A stretch of DNA of 32,380 bases from Pedobacter sp. Its GTDB lineage: Bacteria > Bacteroidota > Bacteroidia > Sphingobacteriales > Sphingobacteriaceae. The notes beneath the pieces were generated by a model that searched no databases, was not told the origin of the DNA, and was given only the letters and a program-made list of their open reading frames with translations. Positions 19,222 through 29,383 of the stretch are shown here, in pieces (position 1 is the stretch's first letter; each line of letters opens with the position of its first letter). A program made the position numbers and the translations under genes. Where the stretch lies: contig JACMPF010000221.1 in the NCBI GenBank assembly GCA_014377665.1, positions 1-32,380 on the forward strand. The letters run 5' to 3'.

Positions 19222-20154
19222 ATGACAGTAGAAAAACTATCAACACGACATCTTTTGGGGATTAAAGACATCAACCGAAATGATATTGAATTGATTTTTG
19301 AGACTGCTGATAACTTCAAGGATGTGATTAACAGACCCATAAAGCGGGTTCCTTCTTTAAGAGACATTACAATTGCCAACATTTTCTTCGAAAATTCAAC
19401 ACGCACAAAGCTCTCCTTTGAACTTGCTGAGAAACGACTTTCGGCAGATGTAGTAAATTTTGCAGCTTCCTCATCTTCTGTAAGTAAAGGAGAAACCCTG
19501 GTTGACACGGTTAACAACATACTTGCAATGAAGGTTGATATGGTTGTAATGCGTCATCCTTATGCCGGTGCTGGCGTTTTTCTAAGTAAGCATATAGACG
19601 CGCAAATTGTAAATGCTGGAGATGGAGCGCACGAGCACCCAACTCAAGCTTTATTGGATGCTTACTCGATACGTCAGAAATTTGGTAATGTAGCCGGAAA
19701 GAAAATCGTAATTGTTGGAGATATCCTTCATTCAAGAGTGGCAATTTCAAATATCCTTTGCCTTCAAAAACTCGGTGCTGAAGTTATGGTTTGTGGACCT
19801 ACAACTTTAATTCCTAAACATATCGAATCCTTAGGAGTCAAAGTTGAACACAATCTTATGAAAGCATTAAATTGGTGCGATGTCGCAAATATGCTCAGGA
19901 TCCAATTGGAACGACAAGATATTAAATACTTTCCATCATTAAGAGAATATGCAATGATGTATGGACTTAACAAGCAAATTCTTGACAGCTTAGATAAAGA
20001 AATTATTATCATGCATCCCGGTCCGATAAACAGAGGGGTTGAAATTACGAGCGATGTAGCGGACAGTAAACAATCCATTATTCTTGAACAAGTTGAGAAC
20101 GGCGTGGCTATAAGAATGGCTGTTTTATACCTTCTCGCTTCCCAAAGGGATTAA
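19222..20154 (+). CDS. pyrB: Aspartate carbamoyltransferase catalytic subunit
   Basis: Joins carbamoyl phosphate and aspartate to form N-carbamoylaspartate in de novo pyrimidine synthesis. At 310 residues it is complete. The carbamoyl-phosphate loop FFENSTRTKLSFE is near residues 54-66; SSSVSKGETLVDT supplies the neighbouring loop; HEHPTQALLDAYSIRQ is near 137; and GDILHSRVAISN, MLRIQLER and MHPGPINRGVEI follow in the second domain. All active-site motifs are intact. It starts 1 base after the pyrR stop. No pyrI regulatory subunit follows; the next gene is the envelope cluster after a 123-bp gap. Confidence 0.96.
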   Translation: MTVEKLSTRHLLGIKDINRNDIELIFETADNFKDVINRPIKRVPSLRDITIANIFFENSTRTKLSFELAEKRLSADVVNFAASSSSVSKGETLVDTVNNILAMKVDMVVMRHPYAGAGVFLSKHIDAQIVNAGDGAHEHPTQALLDAYSIRQKFGNVAGKKIVIVGDILHSRVAISNILCLQKLGAEVMVCGPTTLIPKHIESLGVKVEHNLMKALNWCDVANMLRIQLERQDIKYFPSLREYAMMYGLNKQILDSLDKEIIIMHPGPINRGVEITSDVADSKQSIILEQVENGVAIRMAVLYLLASQRD

Positions 20155-20277: not shown

Positions 20278-23200
20278 ATGCAGAAAAAAATCTTTTTTAT
20301 TCCGCTGTTATTAGCAAGCGGCTTTACGGCTACGTACGCTCAGAGCAGCAAGTTAGTAACCCTTAATAAAAATTATCAAGTCGGATTAGAGCTTTTACAC
20401 AACGAAAAATATGTTGCTGCAGCACAACAGTTCAGACTAGTTGAGAGCATACGCGAAAAACCCGGTGCACAACAAGAAAGCAACGCTGAACTTTCCCTAT
20501 TAAAAGAAAATGCAAAGTTTTATACTGCAGTATGTGCGTTAGAACTTGGAAATAGTGACGCTGAAAGCCTATTTCAAAACTTTATAAAAGAATACCCTTT
20601 AAACTCTAACACCAAATTGGCATATTTTCATGTTGGCAAATCATATTTTGGCCAAAAGAATTATCAGAAGGCTCTAGAATGGTTCGAAAAAACCGATCCA
20701 TCCTCTCTTTCTGCAAAGCAGCGGCTAGAATATCAATTTAAACAGGGTTATTCGTATTTTGAACTCAAAAATATAGAGAAAGCAGAACCTCTTTTTGAAG
20801 CTGTGAAAAAAGACGATTCCCCATTCCAAGAAAGTGCCACATACTACTTCGCCTATATTAATTACCTTAACAAAGAGTATAAAACTGCACTTAGTAACTT
20901 TGAAAAGTTAAAAGGGTCGCCAACCTATGAGTCAAGCTATCCTTATTACATCACATCAATGTATTATCTGGATGAGAGGTATGACGATGTTCTGAGTTAC
21001 GCTATTCCAATTCTAAAAACTTCAAAACAGCAGTACGAAGCTGAGATGTTGAGTCTGATCGCCGCTTCGTACTTTGCTAAATCTGACTATCAAAATGCAG
21101 AAAAATATTTTGCTGAATTTTATCAAAAGGATAAGTCAAACACTCAAAATAACCTGTTTACCTATCAATACGGTTATTCACTTTTCCAATTGAAAAAATA
21201 TACTCAATCTATTAACGTTTTGGAAAAGCTAAATACAGATGATGTCTATTTACAAAGTGGAATGTACACTCTTGGGCGCTCATTCATTGAGCTGAAGAGT
21301 AAGGAGAGAGCAAGGAGCGCTTTCTTCAGAGCATCAAGATTGGACTTTGATAAGGTTGTACAGGAAGAGTCCTGGATAAACTACGCCAGATTAAGTTACG
21401 AACTGGATTTTAATCAGCAAGCCTTAGAAGCGACGCAAAATTTTTTAAAACAGTTTCCTACCTCAAGGAAGATTAATGAGACCAAAACTTTACTTGGCGA
21501 GATTTTACTGACAAGTAAAAATTACCAAGCAGCAATTGATATTCTTGAACCTATTCAGAATAAATCAGCCGACGCGAGGGAGGCTTACCAAAAGGTAACT
21601 TACTTCAGAGGATTAGAGTTTTACAATGAACGCGCATTTCCAAATGCTTTATCCATGTTTCTTAGATCGGAGAAATTTCCTGAAGATGCCGAAATTTTGG
21701 CTTTAAATACTTATTGGAAGGCCGAAGCATCCTACGAATTGAGAAAGTTTGGAGAAGCTGTTAGTCATTTTGAGACTTTTCTGGATATGCCAGGCGCTAA
21801 AAAAACGGGTGTTTACAACTTTGCTAACTACGCCCTCGCTTACTCTGCTTTTGAGGATGAAAAGTACAGCAAAGCAGCAAACTACTTTGAAAAGTTCCTA
21901 AACGGTAATGATAGAGATCAGAAAACAATAAACGATGCAGTTGTCAGGTTAGCCGATTCTTACTTTGTTAGTAAAAGCTATGGCAATGCGCTGACTAATT
22001 ATAATAAGATTATTTCAAATGGATCAACTGGTGAGGATTATGCACTTTTTCAACGTGGTATGATTCAGGGATTGGAAAATCAGAACGATGCAAAAATTGC
22101 CACTATGGAGGATTTACTGAAAAAATTCGCAAATTCAAATTATGCCGATGACGCAGGATTTGAAACTGCCTATACATATTTTAATAAAGGCGATTTTGAT
22201 AAGTCTAAGTCAGACCTGATCACTTTAATAAGTAAGTATCCGAACAGCAGTTATGTGCCAAGAGCTTTGGTGACAATTGGTTTGGTTCAATACAACCAAG
22301 ACAAAGATGACGAAGCATTAGAATCATTCAAAAAGGTCATTAGAGAATATGCAAGCACTGAGGAGGCAAAGCAGTCACTTGAATCCATCAAGAATATTTA
22401 TGTGGATAGAGGTGATTCTGAAGGTTTCATTACCTACGCAAACTCAACGCCAATTGGAAACTATTCAGTTGCAGAGCAAGACAACATTGTCTTCCAAGCA
22501 ACTAACAACAGATACTTAAAAGGCGATTTCAAAGGTGCTTTCGAAGCGGTAAATGCTTATTTTGACAAATTTCCAAAGGCGATTCACAATAAAGAGGCAA
22601 AGTTTGTTAGAGCAGAATCTTTAGTTCAACTCGGTAGACCTTTAGAAGCAATTCCTGACTATGAGTATATTCTTAACGACTGGACAAGCGACTATACTGA
22701 AAGGTCCTTAGTTGGCATTTCGAAATTGTTCCTTGATCAGAAAAAATATAACGAAGCCATCGTTTATCTTAAGAGACTAGAGACAACTGCAGATTATAAA
22801 GTTCATTACAGCTTTGCACTAAATAATTTATTAAGAGCATATGATGCTTTAAACATGCCAGACGATATTGTTAAGTACGTGAAATTGATTAAGGAGTCTG
22901 AAAAAGGCTCTGAAGAAGAGAAAAACAGCGCCGACCTGTATGCTGGTAAAGCCTATTTACTTAAAGCAGATACATCAATGGCAGTTAAGGCTTTCAATAA
23001 CGTAGTTAGCAGCACTAAAACGGTAGCTGCAGCCGAAGCGAAATATAACCTTGCCGCTATACAATATGCTAAAAAAGATTATAAAACCTCTACCAAAACT
23101 TGTTTTGATCTAATAAATAATATGCCATCCTATGATTATTGGGTAGCTATGTCATTCATTTTGTTATCAGACAACTATGTAGCTCTTAAGGACAATTTAC

Positions 23201-23295
23201 AAGCTAAAAGTACACTACTAAGTATTATTGATAATTATGACGGAAAAGACGACATCGTTCCAATAGCTAAAGAAAAATTGCAAAAAATCAAATAG
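20278..23295 (+). CDS. Large periplasmic tetratricopeptide repeat protein
   Basis: A 1005-residue exported scaffold. The signal peptide is MQKKIFFIPLLLASGFTATYAQ, and the rest is built almost entirely of TPR helices. Examples are LAYFHVGKSYFGQKNYQKALEWFEKTDP, LIAASYFAKSDYQNAEKYFAEFYQKD, LGEILLTSKNYQAAIDILEPI, ANYALAYSAFEDEKYSKAANYFEKFL and LAAIQYAKKDYKTSTKTCFDLI. The repeat style is that of BamD and CpoB/YbgF, the latter being the Tol-Pal-associated periplasmic protein, but this one is several times longer. It opens a row of six genes on one strand with short gaps (9 bases to the next), ending in ExbB, ExbD and a TonB/TolA-like protein. I infer a scaffold role between peptidoglycan and outer membrane. 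An imperfect -7 box (CATATTTG, 20262-20269) precedes it. Confidence 0.88.
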   Translation: MQKKIFFIPLLLASGFTATYAQSSKLVTLNKNYQVGLELLHNEKYVAAAQQFRLVESIREKPGAQQESNAELSLLKENAKFYTAVCALELGNSDAESLFQNFIKEYPLNSNTKLAYFHVGKSYFGQKNYQKALEWFEKTDPSSLSAKQRLEYQFKQGYSYFELKNIEKAEPLFEAVKKDDSPFQESATYYFAYINYLNKEYKTALSNFEKLKGSPTYESSYPYYITSMYYLDERYDDVLSYAIPILKTSKQQYEAEMLSLIAASYFAKSDYQNAEKYFAEFYQKDKSNTQNNLFTYQYGYSLFQLKKYTQSINVLEKLNTDDVYLQSGMYTLGRSFIELKSKERARSAFFRASRLDFDKVVQEESWINYARLSYELDFNQQALEATQNFLKQFPTSRKINETKTLLGEILLTSKNYQAAIDILEPIQNKSADAREAYQKVTYFRGLEFYNERAFPNALSMFLRSEKFPEDAEILALNTYWKAEASYELRKFGEAVSHFETFLDMPGAKKTGVYNFANYALAYSAFEDEKYSKAANYFEKFLNGNDRDQKTINDAVVRLADSYFVSKSYGNALTNYNKIISNGSTGEDYALFQRGMIQGLENQNDAKIATMEDLLKKFANSNYADDAGFETAYTYFNKGDFDKSKSDLITLISKYPNSSYVPRALVTIGLVQYNQDKDDEALESFKKVIREYASTEEAKQSLESIKNIYVDRGDSEGFITYANSTPIGNYSVAEQDNIVFQATNNRYLKGDFKGAFEAVNAYFDKFPKAIHNKEAKFVRAESLVQLGRPLEAIPDYEYILNDWTSDYTERSLVGISKLFLDQKKYNEAIVYLKRLETTADYKVHYSFALNNLLRAYDALNMPDDIVKYVKLIKESEKGSEEEKNSADLYAGKAYLLKADTSMAVKAFNNVVSSTKTVAAAEAKYNLAAIQYAKKDYKTSTKTCFDLINNMPSYDYWVAMSFILLSDNYVALKDNLQAKSTLLSIIDNYDGKDDIVPIAKEKLQKIK

Positions 23296-23304
23296 AAGAT
23301 CAAC

Positions 23305-25008
23305 ATGAAATTGACTAGAATAATATATACAACTGTTTTGTTATTAGCGGCCGTTTCTTTCGACTTGAAAGCTCAGGACACGAAAACAACGGAAAAGAAA
23401 ACTGAGGAAAAAGCTGTTACAGAAGAAATAGAGGTCGTAAGGCCTTACAAACCGATACTCGCAGAAGCTGTGAAACTTAGACGTAGCCCTGATTTGAACG
23501 ATGTTAAGACTTATAAAGCAAAGTTTAATTACAGTCTTACTGATCGTAAGCTTGAATTAAACTCTGATATTAATAAATTACAGGCTCAACAAGTAGCAGA
23601 TGAAAAACAGCATGAATTTATAAATAACTACGTTAAGGGTGGGTTCGGAAGTGCCAAAACTATTTTCGGGGAAGCTTACGTTAACATAGGTGACGATCCT
23701 GGTTTGCAAGCTGGCGCATTTTTTCAGCATTTCAGCCAGTCTGGAAAATTAAACAAACAACAATCGGATCAACAGAAGTTGGGAGCATTTGGACGAACAA
23801 CCGGTGATATGTATACCTTAAATGGCCGCATAAACTTTCAACGTAATGGATTATATTTTTACGGGCTTGACAAAAACAACCCAACATTCAATCCTAATCC
23901 ACAAAAACAAGTTTTAAATTTTGTAGAAGCAGAGGGTGAGATTGTGAACAAATTCACTGATGACCCAGACGCACTAAGTTACGCTGCTAAAGTTAATGGC
24001 TATGTGTGGAGTGATAAATACAATGCAACTGAAAATTCGATAGTTTTAAATGGCTATCTAAACAAGAGAATTAGTAGTTTCAACCTAGGGCTCTCTTCAT
24101 CGGCTGAATTTGGCAGCACAAAAGATTCATTAACTTCGGTTGGCAACAATCTCTTCAAACTAAACCCGTACATAAGGTTGCAGGCCAATGGTGTAAAAAT
24201 TAATGCCGGAATAAATTTTATTCAAGAATTTGGAGCATTTTCTTCAACGCGTATTTTCCCCGCAGTGACCGCGGATTTTACATTGATACCTGACTATTTA
24301 CAGATTTTTGGAGAGGTTAAAGGAGACGTGAATAGAAATTCCTTGAAGCAGTTTACTGATGAAAATCCATTTTTAAACAGTAACATCAATATCAGAAATA
24401 CAATTGAAAAATTAAGTATCAGTGGTGGTATTAAAGGAACTGGTGGGCCAGGCTTCGGCTATAAGGCTCGCTTCTATCACAAAAAAATTGAAGATATGCC
24501 ATTGTTTGTTAATAACTTTAATCAATTCAACAAGTTTGATGTTATTTACGATTTTGGTTCAATGAAATTAATTGGGCTAGAAGGGGAACTTTCCGTTCAA
24601 GTTAGTGACGCGCTAAAATGGACAGGTAAGGTTAATTTCGACGATTACAGTCCTGCTTCAGAAACGCAGAGTTGGTTCAAACCACTGCTAAGGATAAGTT
24701 CTGATTTGTGGCTTAATGTTACCAAGGAGCTTACATTGACCGGTTCAATCTTGATACAAGACGATAGCAAAGCGAAAGTATATAACTCAGCGCCAGCAAA
24801 TCCTTACTTTATTCCAGACCCTACGCAGGAACGTGTCGTTACAGTAAAAGGATTTGTTGATCTTGGGGCGGGTGCAAATTATAAAATCAACAATAAATTT
24901 TCTGCATTTGCAAATGTTAACAACCTATTGAACTCATCTTACAGTCGATATTTGTATTACGAAACCATAGGCCTAAATGTATTTGGAGGTATAAGTTATT
25001 CATTCTAA
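23305..25008 (+). CDS. Outer-membrane beta-barrel protein without plug (TonB-dependent-receptor-like)
   Basis: A 567-residue exported protein; signal peptide MKLTRIIYTTVLLLAAVSFDLKAQ. A Lys/Glu/Thr-rich linker (residues 25-41) leads to EIEVVRPYKPILAEAVKL, a short segment that could lie in the periplasm. From about residue 108 the sequence shows repeating amphipathic strands (YVKGGFGSAKTIFGEAYVNIG, KLGAFGRTTGDMYTLNGRINF) and ends GLNVFGGISYSF, the C-terminal strand with terminal Phe expected for BAM-inserted barrels. The last 60 residues resemble the end of TonB-dependent receptors (FVDLGAGANYKINNKFSAFANVNNLLN). No plug domain or TonB box is recognisable and the length is short for such a receptor. 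It lies between the TPR scaffold and the HU/SPOR gene. Confidence 0.82.
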   Translation: MKLTRIIYTTVLLLAAVSFDLKAQDTKTTEKKTEEKAVTEEIEVVRPYKPILAEAVKLRRSPDLNDVKTYKAKFNYSLTDRKLELNSDINKLQAQQVADEKQHEFINNYVKGGFGSAKTIFGEAYVNIGDDPGLQAGAFFQHFSQSGKLNKQQSDQQKLGAFGRTTGDMYTLNGRINFQRNGLYFYGLDKNNPTFNPNPQKQVLNFVEAEGEIVNKFTDDPDALSYAAKVNGYVWSDKYNATENSIVLNGYLNKRISSFNLGLSSSAEFGSTKDSLTSVGNNLFKLNPYIRLQANGVKINAGINFIQEFGAFSSTRIFPAVTADFTLIPDYLQIFGEVKGDVNRNSLKQFTDENPFLNSNINIRNTIEKLSISGGIKGTGGPGFGYKARFYHKKIEDMPLFVNNFNQFNKFDVIYDFGSMKLIGLEGELSVQVSDALKWTGKVNFDDYSPASETQSWFKPLLRISSDLWLNVTKELTLTGSILIQDDSKAKVYNSAPANPYFIPDPTQERVVTVKGFVDLGAGANYKINNKFSAFANVNNLLNSSYSRYLYYETIGLNVFGGISYSF

Positions 25009-25061
25009 TCGTTTTTTATTAATAGTTGGTTGATACGAAATTTAAATTTATTTTTACAAAA

Positions 25062-26135
25062 ATGGATATCTTATCACACCTGACAGATTTACTAAGAACT
25101 CACAAGGAAGTTGGAATTGAGGGGCTTGGTACGTTTTTTAAAAAGAAAATACCGGGGCGGTATGATGTTAAAAATCATCTATTCGTGCCTCCAAGATACA
25201 GTTTAGACTTCAGCGTAGAAATTAAAGAGACAGTAATCCTTAGTAAATATATCTCTGGTATAACAGATATCTCTACAGAGTCTGCTCAATATTACATTGG
25301 TCTTTTTGTTGATGATATCAATAGGCAAATTGCTATCTCGAATGAAGCTGATCTGGATTCTATGGGAAAGCTCAGGTACGTTGATGATAATTTAACCTTA
25401 GAAGAACAGGATGAAGTTAATCTCGGTTTCGAATTTTATGGACTCCCTGTAATAAGGGAGGACGAGTTTAGCGAAATTCAACAAATCACAACAAGGGAGC
25501 TTAGATCTGATGAAGGCCCATCCAATATATGGCATTTTGATAGAGAAGGATCGAGTCCTTCCACTATCAATGCTTTGAGTGATTCTCTAGAAGACGCAAA
25601 ATCTACCAGCCCTTTATGGATAAAAGCTTTAATAGTGATTATAGTTGTATTGGCTCTTGGTACTGTCGCTGCCTATTTCCTAAAGCCCAGCTTGTTTGGG
25701 ATAGAGAATGTCTCGCATTTACCAACAGTAGTAAAAGATGCAATAATTCCTTCTGTTTTACCGGTTAATATCGACACATCGTCAATTTCTGATTCAAATT
25801 CAAGCTTGAATTCAACAAAAACTATCGATAGTACTTCCAAAATACTACCAACAGCAAGTCAAGATCCACAGATTTCACACGACACGACTACATGGGAAAT
25901 TATCGGTGCTTCTTTGACAAAAAAAGAGGTTAGTTGGTACATAGAGGATATGAAGTCGAAAGGCTTTACAGCTAAGCCCGTACCCACTATGCCTGGAAAA
26001 AAAAGAATCAAAATGAGCATTGCTACTTTCGGCGATGAAGAAAGCGCCAGAGAAGGCCGCAAGTGGCTCATTAAAAAACTAAAAAATAAAGACCTATACA
26101 TTTTCCAGAATAAACACACATACAAACCTATATAA
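25062..26135 (+). CDS. HU-CCDC81 / SPOR domain membrane protein
   Basis: A 357-residue single-pass inner-membrane protein. I start at ATG 25062 (MDILSHLTDLLRTHKEV); an upstream TTG frame adds a poor N-terminus. Residues 1-135 look like the tandem HU-CCDC81 prokaryotic domains, with VGIEGLGTFFKKKIPGRYD corresponding to the HU-like core and a second copy ending near ADLDSMGKLRYVDDN. A polar linker leads to a membrane helix at about 187-209 (IKALIVIIVVLALGTVAAYFL), a Ser/Thr-rich spacer, and a SPOR-like domain at about 280-352 (EIIGASLTKKEVSWYIEDM, MSIATFGDEESAREGRKWL). SPOR domains bind denuded peptidoglycan. The HU-like part would be in the cytoplasm, where it could touch DNA or act as a protein-binding module. 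It ends 2 bases before exbB. Confidence 0.85.
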   Translation: MDILSHLTDLLRTHKEVGIEGLGTFFKKKIPGRYDVKNHLFVPPRYSLDFSVEIKETVILSKYISGITDISTESAQYYIGLFVDDINRQIAISNEADLDSMGKLRYVDDNLTLEEQDEVNLGFEFYGLPVIREDEFSEIQQITTRELRSDEGPSNIWHFDREGSSPSTINALSDSLEDAKSTSPLWIKALIVIIVVLALGTVAAYFLKPSLFGIENVSHLPTVVKDAIIPSVLPVNIDTSSISDSNSSLNSTKTIDSTSKILPTASQDPQISHDTTTWEIIGASLTKKEVSWYIEDMKSKGFTAKPVPTMPGKKRIKMSIATFGDEESAREGRKWLIKKLKNKDLYIFQNKHTYKPI

Positions 26136-26137
26136 AC

Positions 26138-26848
26138 ATGATCACTCTATTACAAAGCGTTACTGATACGGCAAACCAACTTGTTGACACAGCCAATAAC
26201 CTAGCGCAACCGATAACTCAAGCACCCGAAGAACTACATTTCATAGATTTACTATTTAAAGGTGGATGGGTTATGGTTCCCCTGGCACTATTAGCGTTCG
26301 CAGGCCTTATCATATTTGTGGAGCGTTACATAACTATCAGAAAAGCATCCAAAACGGAGTCTAACCTGATGCTTCAAATTAAACAGTACATCCATGATGG
26401 TAGACTAGATAATGCGATTGCATTATGCAAAAATAACAATTCTCCGCTGTCAAGAATGTTAGAGAAAGGTTTGAAACGTATTGGACGCCCCATTAAGGAT
26501 ATAGAGGCAGCTATTGAGAACATTGGGAAGTTGGAGGTCTCTAAATTGGAAAAAAATATAGGCATACTTGGTATTATTGCTGGAATTGCCCCAATGCTTG
26601 GATTCGTCGGAACAATTATCGGTGTAATTACAATCTTCCATGACGTATCTATAAAAGGGGCAATTGAAATTGGTACAATCTCTGGGGGTTTATATACTAA
26701 AATGATCACCTCAGCAACGGGTTTGATAGTAGGTATCATTGCCTATGTGCTGTATCATATACTAAATGCAATGGTGGAACGTATTATTTTAAGAATGGAG
26801 ACAGATTCAATTGAATTTATAGATTTACTTGAGGAGCCAGGAAAATAA
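26138..26848 (+). CDS. exbB: MotA/TolQ/ExbB proton channel family protein
   Basis: Inner-membrane stator that, with ExbD, uses the proton gradient to drive a TonB- or TolA-like transducer. The 236 residues have a periplasmic N-terminus, a first helix near 41-62 (GGWVMVPLALLAFAGLIIFVERY), a cytoplasmic domain, and two C-terminal helices: GILGIIAGIAPMLGFVGTIIGVITIF, and SATGLIVGIIAYVLYHILNAM near the end. The GxxxMLGFVGTxxG pattern and the threonine-bearing helices of the family are present. It cannot be placed as ExbB or TolQ from sequence alone. Its stop overlaps the exbD start by one base (TAATG). Confidence 0.9.
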   Translation: MITLLQSVTDTANQLVDTANNLAQPITQAPEELHFIDLLFKGGWVMVPLALLAFAGLIIFVERYITIRKASKTESNLMLQIKQYIHDGRLDNAIALCKNNNSPLSRMLEKGLKRIGRPIKDIEAAIENIGKLEVSKLEKNIGILGIIAGIAPMLGFVGTIIGVITIFHDVSIKGAIEIGTISGGLYTKMITSATGLIVGIIAYVLYHILNAMVERIILRMETDSIEFIDLLEEPGK

Positions 26849-27255
26849 TGAATTTACGTAAACGACAAAAAGGCACTGTGGAGGTCCATACCTCTGCATT
26901 GAATGACATCATGTTTTTTTTGATGTTGTTTTTCCTATTGGCATCTGCTGTGGTTAATCCTAAAGTTGTGAAATTGCTCCTACCAAGATCTGAATCTGGG
27001 CAGCAGTCATCACCACAGAAAACCGTAGCTATATCCATTGATAAAAACTTAAATTATTTTATTGACAAGCAGCCCACTACTATCGAAAACCTACAAGCTA
27101 CGCTAGAGGCCTATAAAGCGTCAGCTCCAGATCTTTCTGTGGTACTTTATGCAGATGGTGAAGTTTCAATTCAAAATACAATTGTAGTATACGATGTCGC
27201 GAATAAACTAGGATTAAAACTTGTGCTGGCAGTCGAACCTGAACGAAAAAAATAA
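26848..27255 (+). CDS. exbD: ExbD/TolR family biopolymer transport protein
   Basis: Single-pass partner of ExbB. The 135 residues begin MNLRKRQKGTVEVHTSALNDIMFF; D20 in the membrane helix (NDIMFFLMLFFLLASAVV) is the conserved proton-carrying aspartate. A periplasmic domain follows (VAISIDKNLNYFIDKQPTTIENL...VVLYADGEVSIQNTIVVYDVANKLGLKLVLAV) with the family's alpha/beta pattern. Start and stop each overlap the neighbouring genes by one base, so exbB, exbD and the next gene are translationally coupled and probably made in fixed ratio. Confidence 0.92.
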   Translation: MNLRKRQKGTVEVHTSALNDIMFFLMLFFLLASAVVNPKVVKLLLPRSESGQQSSPQKTVAISIDKNLNYFIDKQPTTIENLQATLEAYKASAPDLSVVLYADGEVSIQNTIVVYDVANKLGLKLVLAVEPERKK

Positions 27256-28067
27256 TGACCTATCCAAAAGAAGAAAACAATTATCCTAAGGCCATCGCAA
27301 TATCTACAGGTATCATGGGTGCTTTATTGGTATTGAGCTTTTTTATCGTAATTGGAAGCTTTGACCCTGTTGATACGGGCATGGGAGGAATGGTTGTAAA
27401 CTACGGCACTTCTCCCGAAGGCATGGGAACAGACATCACTAGTATAGAGGAGCCTTCAGCTGATCCTAACGCTAATAATCAAACACCTGATAAATTGGTT
27501 CCTACTGAGCCAACTAAGGAACAACCTACTAAACAGTCTAGCGATAAGGACATAGTGACTCAAAACACCGAGGATGCTGTAAAGGTAAACAGCAAGACTA
27601 ACAGCAAGAGCACTAATCCAACGGCTACTACAAACGATAAGCCATCTAAGCCTGTCATAAATCAAAATGCCTTGTATAAAGGGAAAACTAATAAAGGAAC
27701 CGGAGGTGGTGACGGTACTACAGCAACCCCAGGGAATCAGGGAGACAAAGACGGAGATCCATTAGCTAATAATTATGGTGAAGGAGGCTCAGGTTTTGGC
27801 GAAACTCCAATCGCACTTAGGAAATTTACTAATCTCGTTACTCCACAAGATGATGGACAAAAGACTGGTAAAATTGCAGTAAGAATCAGAATTGATAAAA
27901 GTGGAACAGTGATTAATGCCACGCCAGGAGTTAAGGGAACTACCCTTAATGATCGCGAATTATGGCAGAAATGTAAGGATGCCTTGATGGGCGCCAGACT
28001 GTCACCATCAGATTCCGCCCCCGATATACAAATTGGAGTGGTAGTATTTAATTTCAAAGTGAAATAA
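27255..28067 (+). CDS. TonB/TolA-like energy transducer
   Basis: A 270-residue protein with a cytoplasmic N-terminus of about 12 residues, one membrane helix (AIAISTGIMGALLVLSFFIVI, about 13-35), a long polar linker rich in Pro, Thr, Lys and Asn (residues about 65-150), a Gly-rich stretch (GTGGGDGTTATPGNQGD), and a C-terminal domain GKIAVRIRIDKSGTVINATPGV...IQIGVVVFNFKV. The C-terminal domain fits the TonB/TolA fold, but the YPGG-type motif common in Bacteroidota TonB proteins is absent, so it looks more TolA-like. Coupled to exbD by a one-base overlap. I infer it transmits force from ExbB/ExbD to the outer-membrane components encoded upstream. Confidence 0.82.
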   Translation: MTYPKEENNYPKAIAISTGIMGALLVLSFFIVIGSFDPVDTGMGGMVVNYGTSPEGMGTDITSIEEPSADPNANNQTPDKLVPTEPTKEQPTKQSSDKDIVTQNTEDAVKVNSKTNSKSTNPTATTNDKPSKPVINQNALYKGKTNKGTGGGDGTTATPGNQGDKDGDPLANNYGEGGSGFGETPIALRKFTNLVTPQDDGQKTGKIAVRIRIDKSGTVINATPGVKGTTLNDRELWQKCKDALMGARLSPSDSAPDIQIGVVVFNFKVK

Positions 28068-28096: not shown

Positions 28097-29383
28097 ATGG
28101 ATTATGAACAGACACTGGATTATTTATATTCTAGGTTACCGATGTTTACTCGCGTAGGAGCTATAGCTTTTAAAAAGGATCTTCACAACACAATCGCTTT
28201 ATGTGAATATTTAGATAACCCGCAAAATAGGTTTAAATCTATACACGTAGGAGGTACAAATGGCAAGGGATCTACTTCTCATATGCTTGCATCGATATTG
28301 CAAGAAGCAGGTTACAAAACAGGGCTGTATACTTCGCCTCATCTGGTTGATTTTCGAGAGCGAATTCGCATTAATGGGGAAATGATAAGTAAGGAATTTG
28401 TTATAGATTTCACCGAGCAAACACAGCAAATTCTAGATGAAATTAGCCCATCATTTTTTGAAGTAACGGTGGCAATGGCTTTCTCCTATTTTGCGAAAAA
28501 TTCTGTAGATATAGCTGTCATCGAAGTTGGCCTTGGCGGTAGGCTCGATTCAACAAATATTATTACTCCAGAGTTGTCCGTTATCACTAATATAAGTCTC
28601 GACCATACCTATCTTCTTGGCAACACCTTAAAAGAAATAGCTTTTGAAAAAGCAGGCATAATAAAAGAGGAAGTACCAGTGATAATTGGTGAATTTGATA
28701 TGGAAACAGCAGATGTTTTCAAAGAAAAAGCAAACATCAGTAATGCTGTAATTATATTTGCCGATCAGGTATTGAACATTTCTCAGGCAAAGTTTGATAC
28801 GGATACACTTTCTTTTTCAGTATATCGTGACAGAAAGCTAATCTATGAAAATCTAGAAATGGATTTAACTGGTTCTTATCAGTTGAAGAATGTTTTATCT
28901 GTACTAGAAACAGTGGAAGTCCTCCAAAAAATCGGTTATGAGATTACAGATAGTCATGTTTACTCAGGTTTAAAAAATGTTAAAAAGCTTACAGGCCTAA
29001 AGGGTCGATGGCACATATTGGACCATAACCCATTAATCGTTTGTGACACAGGGCATAACGAAGCAGGTATAAAAGAAGTTGTAAATAACCTATTAGGGTT
29101 AAAATATAAACAACTACATATTGTAATTGGGATGGTTAAAGACAAAGACATTCCATCAGTGCTCGCCAAACTGCCTATCCATGCAACATACTATTTCTGT
29201 AGTCCTAATCTTGAGAGGGCACTATCTGCAGACGAGCTTAGATCCCAGGCAGCATTGCTAAAGCTAGCTGGTAAAAGCTTCTTGACTGTAACTGAAGCAT
29301 TCAGCGAAGCTAAAAGGAACGCATCTAAAGATGATGTAATTTTTGTTGGGGGAAGTACCTTCGTTGTAGCCGAAGTTTTATAA
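28097..29383 (+). CDS. folC: Bifunctional dihydrofolate synthase / folylpolyglutamate synthase
   Basis: Adds glutamate to dihydropteroate and to reduced folates. The 428 residues carry the ATP-binding loop VGGTNGKGST (residues 51-60) with the following folate loop LYTSPHLVDFRERIRINGE, then FFEVTVAMAFSYFA, VIEVGLGGRLDSTN, NISLDHTYLLGNT, EKAGIIKEEVPV, and in the second domain LKGRWHILDHNPLIVCDTGHNEAG and VIGMVKDKD. It begins 29 bases after the transducer gene, so it may be carried on the envelope transcript, an arrangement I recall as common in Bacteroidota but functionally unexplained. Confidence 0.96.
   Translation: MDYEQTLDYLYSRLPMFTRVGAIAFKKDLHNTIALCEYLDNPQNRFKSIHVGGTNGKGSTSHMLASILQEAGYKTGLYTSPHLVDFRERIRINGEMISKEFVIDFTEQTQQILDEISPSFFEVTVAMAFSYFAKNSVDIAVIEVGLGGRLDSTNIITPELSVITNISLDHTYLLGNTLKEIAFEKAGIIKEEVPVIIGEFDMETADVFKEKANISNAVIIFADQVLNISQAKFDTDTLSFSVYRDRKLIYENLEMDLTGSYQLKNVLSVLETVEVLQKIGYEITDSHVYSGLKNVKKLTGLKGRWHILDHNPLIVCDTGHNEAGIKEVVNNLLGLKYKQLHIVIGMVKDKDIPSVLAKLPIHATYYFCSPNLERALSADELRSQAALLKLAGKSFLTVTEAFSEAKRNASKDDVIFVGGSTFVVAEVL

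Follow-up and report, generated by a model that had tools for sequence, protein, structure and literature searches.

Six adjacent genes in a contig of Pedobacter sp. (GenBank assembly GCA_014377665.1, contig JACMPF010000221.1; 32,380 nucleotides, analyzed as a whole and denoted here the window) encode a periplasmic TPR protein, an outer-membrane barrel that appears to lack a plug, a protein with HU, transmembrane (TM), and putative SPOR domains, ExbB- and ExbD-family motor subunits, and a transducer with a predicted TonB-type C-terminal domain. This row is an ancient unit that recurs across Bacteroidota. We propose, with about even confidence, that it encodes a dedicated Ton-type force machine spanning the cell envelope, with the plugless barrel as its client, and that this machine probably performs envelope work of the Tol-Pal kind. 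An earlier note on the same DNA had read the row as a Tol-like machine; as an analogy this reading holds up, but as a family assignment it does not, given that the transducer C-domain appears to be of the TonB type and the likely client to be of TonB-receptor descent. No description of the row was found in the open-access literature, as covered by titles and the starts of abstracts, with preprints outside the scope.

Components of the six-gene row

The open reading frame (ORF) calls and translations reproduce the row with the coordinates, order, and gaps given in the earlier note: all six genes lie on the + strand at positions 20278-28067, separated by 9, 53, 2, -1, and -1 bases. The features are listed below.

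20278..23295, + strand: periplasmic TPR protein with CpoB/YbgF-type repeats (1005 amino acids; signal peptide by eye; TIGR02795; PDB matches)
23305..25008, + strand: predicted plugless outer-membrane barrel of TonB-dependent-receptor descent (567 amino acids; AlphaFold2 [AF2], Foldseek, profile against PDB sequences)
23425..23439, + strand: putative TonB-box-like motif EIEVV, barrel residues 41-45 (conservation among barrels)
23623..25005, + strand: predicted barrel domain, ~22 strands (counted by eye from DSSP of the AF2 model)
25062..26135, + strand: protein with two CCDC81-type HU domains, TM segment, and putative SPOR domain (ATG at 25062; HU by Pfam, SPOR through relatives)
25872..26111, + strand: SPOR-like C-terminal region (relatives)
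26138..26848, + strand: ExbB/TolQ-family motor subunit (236 amino acids; MotA_ExbB, 82.8 bits)
26848..27255, + strand: ExbD/TolR-family motor subunit (135 amino acids; ExbD, 91.5 bits)
27255..28067, + strand: transducer with TM helix, disordered linker, and predicted TonB-type C-domain (270 amino acids; AF2, fold comparison, relatives)
27813..28064, + strand: predicted TonB-type C-terminal domain of the transducer (AF2, fold comparison)
28097..29383, + strand: FolC, a frequent downstream neighbor not counted in the machine (family search; other loci)

The window barrel gave no Pfam hit on its own, and family searches with the barrel or the transducer alone yielded weak matches; both proteins were identified through homologs and structure prediction. 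AF2 modeling of the barrel from a 25-sequence alignment (mean predicted local distance difference test score [pLDDT] = 78) placed the strands from residue 109 onward and left residues 17-106 with pLDDT below 50, that is, predicted as disordered where a plug would sit. Foldseek searches with this model retrieved BtuB, PfeA, and FpvA (E = 3e-16 to 5e-16), and the barrel sequence profile matched TonB-dependent receptors in PDB (E = 7e-7). Among 31 barrel homologs, the Pfam receptor barrel was detected in 5 and a plug family in none. Judging by these models and matches, the protein is a TonB-receptor-type barrel of ~22 strands without a plug; the absence of a plug agrees with the earlier note. In 15 of 15 genomes, it is the single match at E ≤ 1e-20.

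The disordered N-terminus of the barrel includes a conserved motif within residues 41-63, the segment that the earlier note had singled out. Across 31 diverse barrels, position 41 is occupied by D, E, Q, or N in 81%, and hydrophobic residues occupy position 42 in 97% and position 44 in 100%. Position 52 (hydrophobic in 97%) and position 57 (K or R wherever the residue is present) are also kept, which delineates a wider conserved segment inside the disordered region. The EIEVV motif presumably resembles TonB boxes. Among the 101 of 128 barrels with a recognized signal peptide, which include related and hence non-independent sequences, a strict motif pattern was found in 69 (20.8 expected by shuffling) and a loose one in 91 (63.8 expected by shuffling).

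The transducer, according to AF2, consists of a TM helix (residues 10-34), a long disordered linker, and an ordered C-domain (residues ~191-268). TonB_C was not detected in the window protein alone; it was found in 8 of 25 relatives, among which there was no TolA family. In VIA-align comparisons, the modeled C-domain scored Z = 9.1 against a TonB C-terminal domain and Z = 7.3 against the best TolA; several of the matching TonB chains come from structures solved together with receptors. The domain is therefore, by predicted structure, nearer to TonB than to TolA, and the “TonB/TolA-like” transducer of the earlier note is better described as TonB-like. The motor subunits match the Pfam MotA_ExbB and ExbD models and score below the TolQ, TolR, and ExbB equivalog cut-offs (TolQ, 68.1 bits against a cut-off of 221; TolR, 34.9 bits against 127.3). 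A second ExbB-ExbD-ExbD set is encoded elsewhere in the window genome, on C200.

The TPR protein is CpoB-like by sequence, as previously suggested, although it is 1005 amino acids long: it scores 178 bits against TIGR02795 (YbgF; cut-off, 90.1) over seven stretches, and the two PDB sequences that match it at E ≤ 1e-6 are CpoB (6g5s) and YbgF (2xev). In the third protein of the row, Pfam recognizes HU-CCDC81 domains at residues 3-54 and 60-126, the second slightly below the cut-off. The SPOR domain that the earlier note had assigned to this protein falls below significance when the window sequence is searched alone (E = 0.33), but it appears to be present by way of relatives: the SPOR-like region matches the homolog L035 (E = 2e-15), which in turn matches SPOR regions of other families (E = 2.7e-13). 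Pfam detected HU domains in 13 of 19 homologs and SPOR in 11 of 19. An alternative, longer TTG start for this gene lies at position 25026. The protein is modular: in alignments, L041 (family f8) has TM and SPOR without HU, and L059 and L086 (f2) have HU and TM without SPOR.

Distribution of the row in Bacteroidota

We surveyed a phylum sample of 296 genomes (with families carried as labels f1 to f50, of which we take f17 to be Chlorobiaceae, f4 Flavobacterium-like, and f23 Balneolales-like, as guesses only). With the window protein as the sole query, the barrel was matched in 93 of these genomes; a profile search at E ≤ 1e-25 raised this to 205 by hand tally. Besides the window, the barrel loci read came from 80 of the other 92 matching genomes, the remaining 12 being left out; L110 and L111, weak barrel matches taken for ordinary TonB receptors, were removed before counting (81 loci reduced to 79).

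Every one of the 17 barrel loci from families f1 (that of the window), f8, and f9, all within the class of the window, contains the six genes in this order. In 74 of the 79 loci, a TPR gene precedes the barrel, either immediately or separated from it by a single ORF. Outside this class, we read 18 loci, one or two per family; this sample favors linked loci because it was picked by best ExbB match. Fourteen have the order TPR-barrel-SPOR-ExbB-ExbD (five of these with a recognized transducer next), three have barrel-SPOR-ExbB-ExbD-transducer with no recognized TPR, and one ends at a contig edge. Among the named ExbB loci, namely the best 80 of 588 matches, 27 show TPR-barrel-SPOR-ExbB-ExbD, including loci of Rhodothermales, Cytophagales, and Ignavibacteria; the barrel is present in 32 overall, and 43, mostly from Bacteroidales, contain just ExbB-ExbD-transducer with or without FolC. 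The order thus reaches far beyond close relatives of the window genome, contrary to the concern, raised in the earlier note, that it might be confined to them.

The components also co-occur when they are not adjacent. At E ≤ 1e-25 for the barrel and E ≤ 1e-55 for a close ExbB, with co-occurrence tallied by hand, the barrel is present in 169 of 170 genomes with a close ExbB vs 36 of the 126 others. Of the 73 genomes sampled from the window's class, 72 have the barrel, the window genome among them; the one lacking it, G269, also lacks a close ExbB. At E ≤ 1e-15, the barrel was matched in 16 of 17 named genomes, and 12 of the 13 without a barrel beside ExbB have one elsewhere. In Bacteroides fragilis, TPR-barrel and a topA-like ORF lie together at 4.28 Mb, and ExbB-ExbD-transducer follows a pdxJ-like ORF at ~3.78 Mb (both neighbors named by eye). 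Candidatus Chrysopegis kryptomonas (G310, locus L219) has ExbB-ExbD-transducer and no barrel match at E ≤ 1e-15.

As an offset to the bias of picking by ExbB, loci from 15 of the 36 barrel genomes without a close ExbB were read. The TPR gene is upstream of the barrel in 14 of them; eight have TPR-barrel-SPOR-transducer and neither ExbB nor ExbD (in one of these, an additional ORF separates the TPR gene from the barrel gene), one more has a divergent ExbB, and one has the transducer upstream. In G190 (f10), the transducer is in the barrel row (L046) and a lone ExbB-ExbD pair is on another contig (L131). In the window's class, we read 22 loci at the best ExbB match in genomes where the separation from the barrel was known beforehand; none has the barrel nearby, and a transducer was recognized in 12. 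The earlier note had treated barrel and TPR genes without motor genes as a sign against a joint machine: such loci do exist in many families, but the motor pair is then encoded elsewhere, with the transducer beside it in these 12 of 22.

In the window, the row is preceded by an aspartate carbamoyltransferase gene (19222-20154), and FolC starts 29 bases past the transducer gene. Several other neighborhoods differ. In L108 (209-4384), the TPR gene is replaced by FtsK-, LolA-, and YbhN-like ORFs, named by eye, which immediately precede the barrel; L107, L137, L138, and L147 resemble this set by ORF sizes only, and the f23 loci L109 and L112 differ from it. An ORF of 444-465 amino acids that resembles UDP-sugar dehydrogenases (by eye, from the N-terminus) follows the transducer in L285, L288, L289, and L290. 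Outside Bacteroidota, a Latescibacterota metagenome-assembled genome (L250), one of the 32 named loci with the barrel, carries TPR-barrel-ExbB-ExbD, which may reflect transfer, shared ancestry, or a binning error.

The earlier note had seen no TolB or Pal in the row and had counted a classical TolB/Pal set beside another ExbBD pair as a sign against its reading. Family searches of the six proteins gave no match to TolB, Pal, or OmpA domains, and the window genome (80.6% complete) yielded no TolB_N match and no Pal above the TIGR02802 cut-off of 125.35 bits (best own match, 3.8e-20), with eight OmpA-domain ORFs elsewhere in the genome. Pal exceeds this cut-off in 0 of 12 named genomes and, in the phylum sample, in 61 of 65 f17 genomes (the other four score 115-125 bits) and in none of the 231 others. 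Conversely, the barrel profile matches 0 of the 65 f17 genomes and 205 of the 231 others, leaving 26 genomes outside f17 with neither. Barrel and Pal are thus mutually exclusive in the 296 genomes, in a single clade contrast. TolB_N was detected in 19 of the 296 genomes (18 above the cut-off); nine of these matches are in f29, f16, f30, f28, and f11, and the control Bacteroides ihuae also matches, so TolB-like proteins exist in the phylum. In G135, G239, and G242 (f29), TolB_N lies inside frames of ~1000-1100 amino acids, as TolB-like parts of long proteins. Families f22, f24, f27, f32, and f47, which lack a close ExbB, show a large expansion of OmpA-domain proteins, with 15 Pal-model matches scored per genome and up to 54 first-look candidates.

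The proposed machine and alternative explanations

In the machine that we propose, ExbB and ExbD would power the transducer from the proton gradient, and the TonB-type C-domain of the transducer would span the periplasm and bind the TonB-box-like motif at the barrel N-terminus, a contact that we consider likely. In the absence of a plug, the force would bear on the barrel itself, so that the outer membrane would be tethered, positioned, or moved. The HU-TM-SPOR protein would bring the complex to the septum, where glycan is denuded, and may also sense the nucleoid, and a connection to wall enzymes would be provided by the large CpoB-type TPR protein. The machine would thus do the job of Tol-Pal in other bacteria. 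We hold with good confidence that the six proteins form one complex, and we give a septal or outer-membrane-tethering role slightly less than an even chance. The proposal draws on the row itself and its deep linkage, the structural models of barrel and C-domain, the conserved motif, the CpoB-type repeats of the TPR protein, and the exclusion between barrel and Pal.

Several observations weigh against this proposal. The exclusion of Pal and barrel opposes one family to the rest and so counts as one event, and with TolB_N in just 10 of the 65 f17 genomes, the counts do not establish a full Tol-Pal set there. Foldseek ranks TonB C-domains first for the transducer C-domain, but weakly (E = 0.004; probability, 1.00). 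Barrel and TPR genes are separate from the motor in f2 to f7, f11, and Bacteroidales, so co-expression is not required; no transducer was recognized beside the motor in the six split f2 loci, and the 36 barrel genomes mentioned above have no close ExbB. Finally, the role of wall tether has a published competitor in PorE (PMC12204202).

The motor and transducer could instead form an ordinary Ton system serving nutrient receptors, with the barrel as an unusual extra client and the TPR and SPOR proteins as unrelated neighbors. The TonB-type C-domain fits this explanation, as do reports on Riemerella anatipestifer. This bacterium has a deletable exbB-exbD-tonB1 set of similar layout and subunit sizes; hemin transport is reported to be unchanged when this set is lost, to drop strongly on loss of tonB2, and to cease when tonB1 and tonB2 are both missing. 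In Escherichia coli, the TonB1 complex powers the hemin receptor of R. anatipestifer and restores growth under iron starvation (PMC4446302). By layout and subunit size, the TonB1 system may be the same as that encoded in the window; its flanking genes differ. A third TonB-like protein of R. anatipestifer is unlinked to exbBD (PMC5109031). These findings, too, count against a dedicated machine; however, deletion of tonBA alone is reported to lower natural transformation in R. anatipestifer with iron uptake remaining normal (PMC8383284), and a plain Ton role leaves this lowered transformation unexplained. Furthermore, the window genome has its second ExbB-ExbD-ExbD set, and a plugless barrel would be an improbable gated importer. 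The linkage also extends across the phylum, and in some loci the transducer is retained next to the barrel in the absence of ExbBD. We consider an ordinary Ton system unlikely.

The plugless barrel might also be a motor-driven channel for outward passage, for example, the surface-lipoprotein flippase of Bacteroidota, in which the TPR protein would serve as periplasmic gate and chaperone. The wide plugless barrel in 72 of 73 genomes of the class and the TPR gene as its closest partner (74 of 79 loci) agree with an export gate, and the flippase is treated as yet to be identified and likely essential in PMC12578637. However, BamA is suggested in the same source as a possible flippase, Ignavibacteria and Rhodothermales have the barrel as well, and the HU-SPOR protein in the row is left unexplained; this explanation, too, appears improbable. 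More doubtful still is that TPR-barrel and HU/SPOR-motor-transducer are two ancient adjoining modules that share no complex. The split in the lineages listed above, with both halves retained, is what such a history would leave, but the linkage persists in many lineages, also in loci without motor genes, and motor and barrel co-occur, G269 lacking both the barrel and a close ExbB.

If the dedicated machine is the correct reading, it bears on how Bacteroidota hold and constrict the outer membrane without Tol-Pal: the row offers named genes, a motif, and a partner, and both halves are present in B. fragilis. It would also mean that a transport receptor has been converted into a mechanical handle. 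Bacteroidetes are reported to have no identifiable tol-pal loci, putative TolB-Pal fusions have been described, PorE has been proposed as a tether, and further systems that stabilize the outer membrane are stated to await discovery (PMC12204202).

Comparison with Tol-Pal, PorE, and Ton systems

The row shares with Tol-Pal a motor of the ExbB/TolQ and ExbD/TolR families, a single-TM transducer, a CpoB-type TPR protein, and a wall-binding domain, and its distribution excludes that of Pal in the genomes searched. It differs in having no TolB, no Pal above the cut-off, a transducer C-domain apparently of the TonB type, putative wall binding through SPOR instead of OmpA, and an integral barrel instead of a lipoprotein. 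As TolB and Pal were looked for and not found, we do not class the row as a member of Tol-Pal and reject plain identity with it; as a working analogy, Tol-Pal is our best guess, at nearly even chances. PorE resembles the row in phylum, in its TPR part, and as a proposed Tol-Pal substitute, but it is described as a single lipoprotein that combines TPR, TolB-like, carboxypeptidase-like, and Pal-like regions (PMC12204202). PorE was set aside as an anchor in this row because none of the six proteins has an OmpA domain.

With Ton systems, the row shares the motor, the predicted TonB-type C-domain, and a receptor-type barrel with a TonB-box-like motif; it differs in that the barrel appears plugless, is encoded with a CpoB-type TPR protein and an HU-SPOR protein, and is the single match per genome (15 of 15). 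We describe the machine as Ton-type by descent because its C-domain is nearer to TonB and its likely client appears to descend from TonB receptors. More tentatively, at somewhat less than an even chance, the row could stand next to Ton and Tol as a third class of trans-envelope machine driven by ions, with a TonB-type transducer that pulls on a plugless barrel bearing a TonB box, and with HU-SPOR and CpoB-type TPR partners. Such a machine would have replaced Tol-Pal in the Bacteroidota ancestor and would couple outer-membrane constriction to the wall and the nucleoid.

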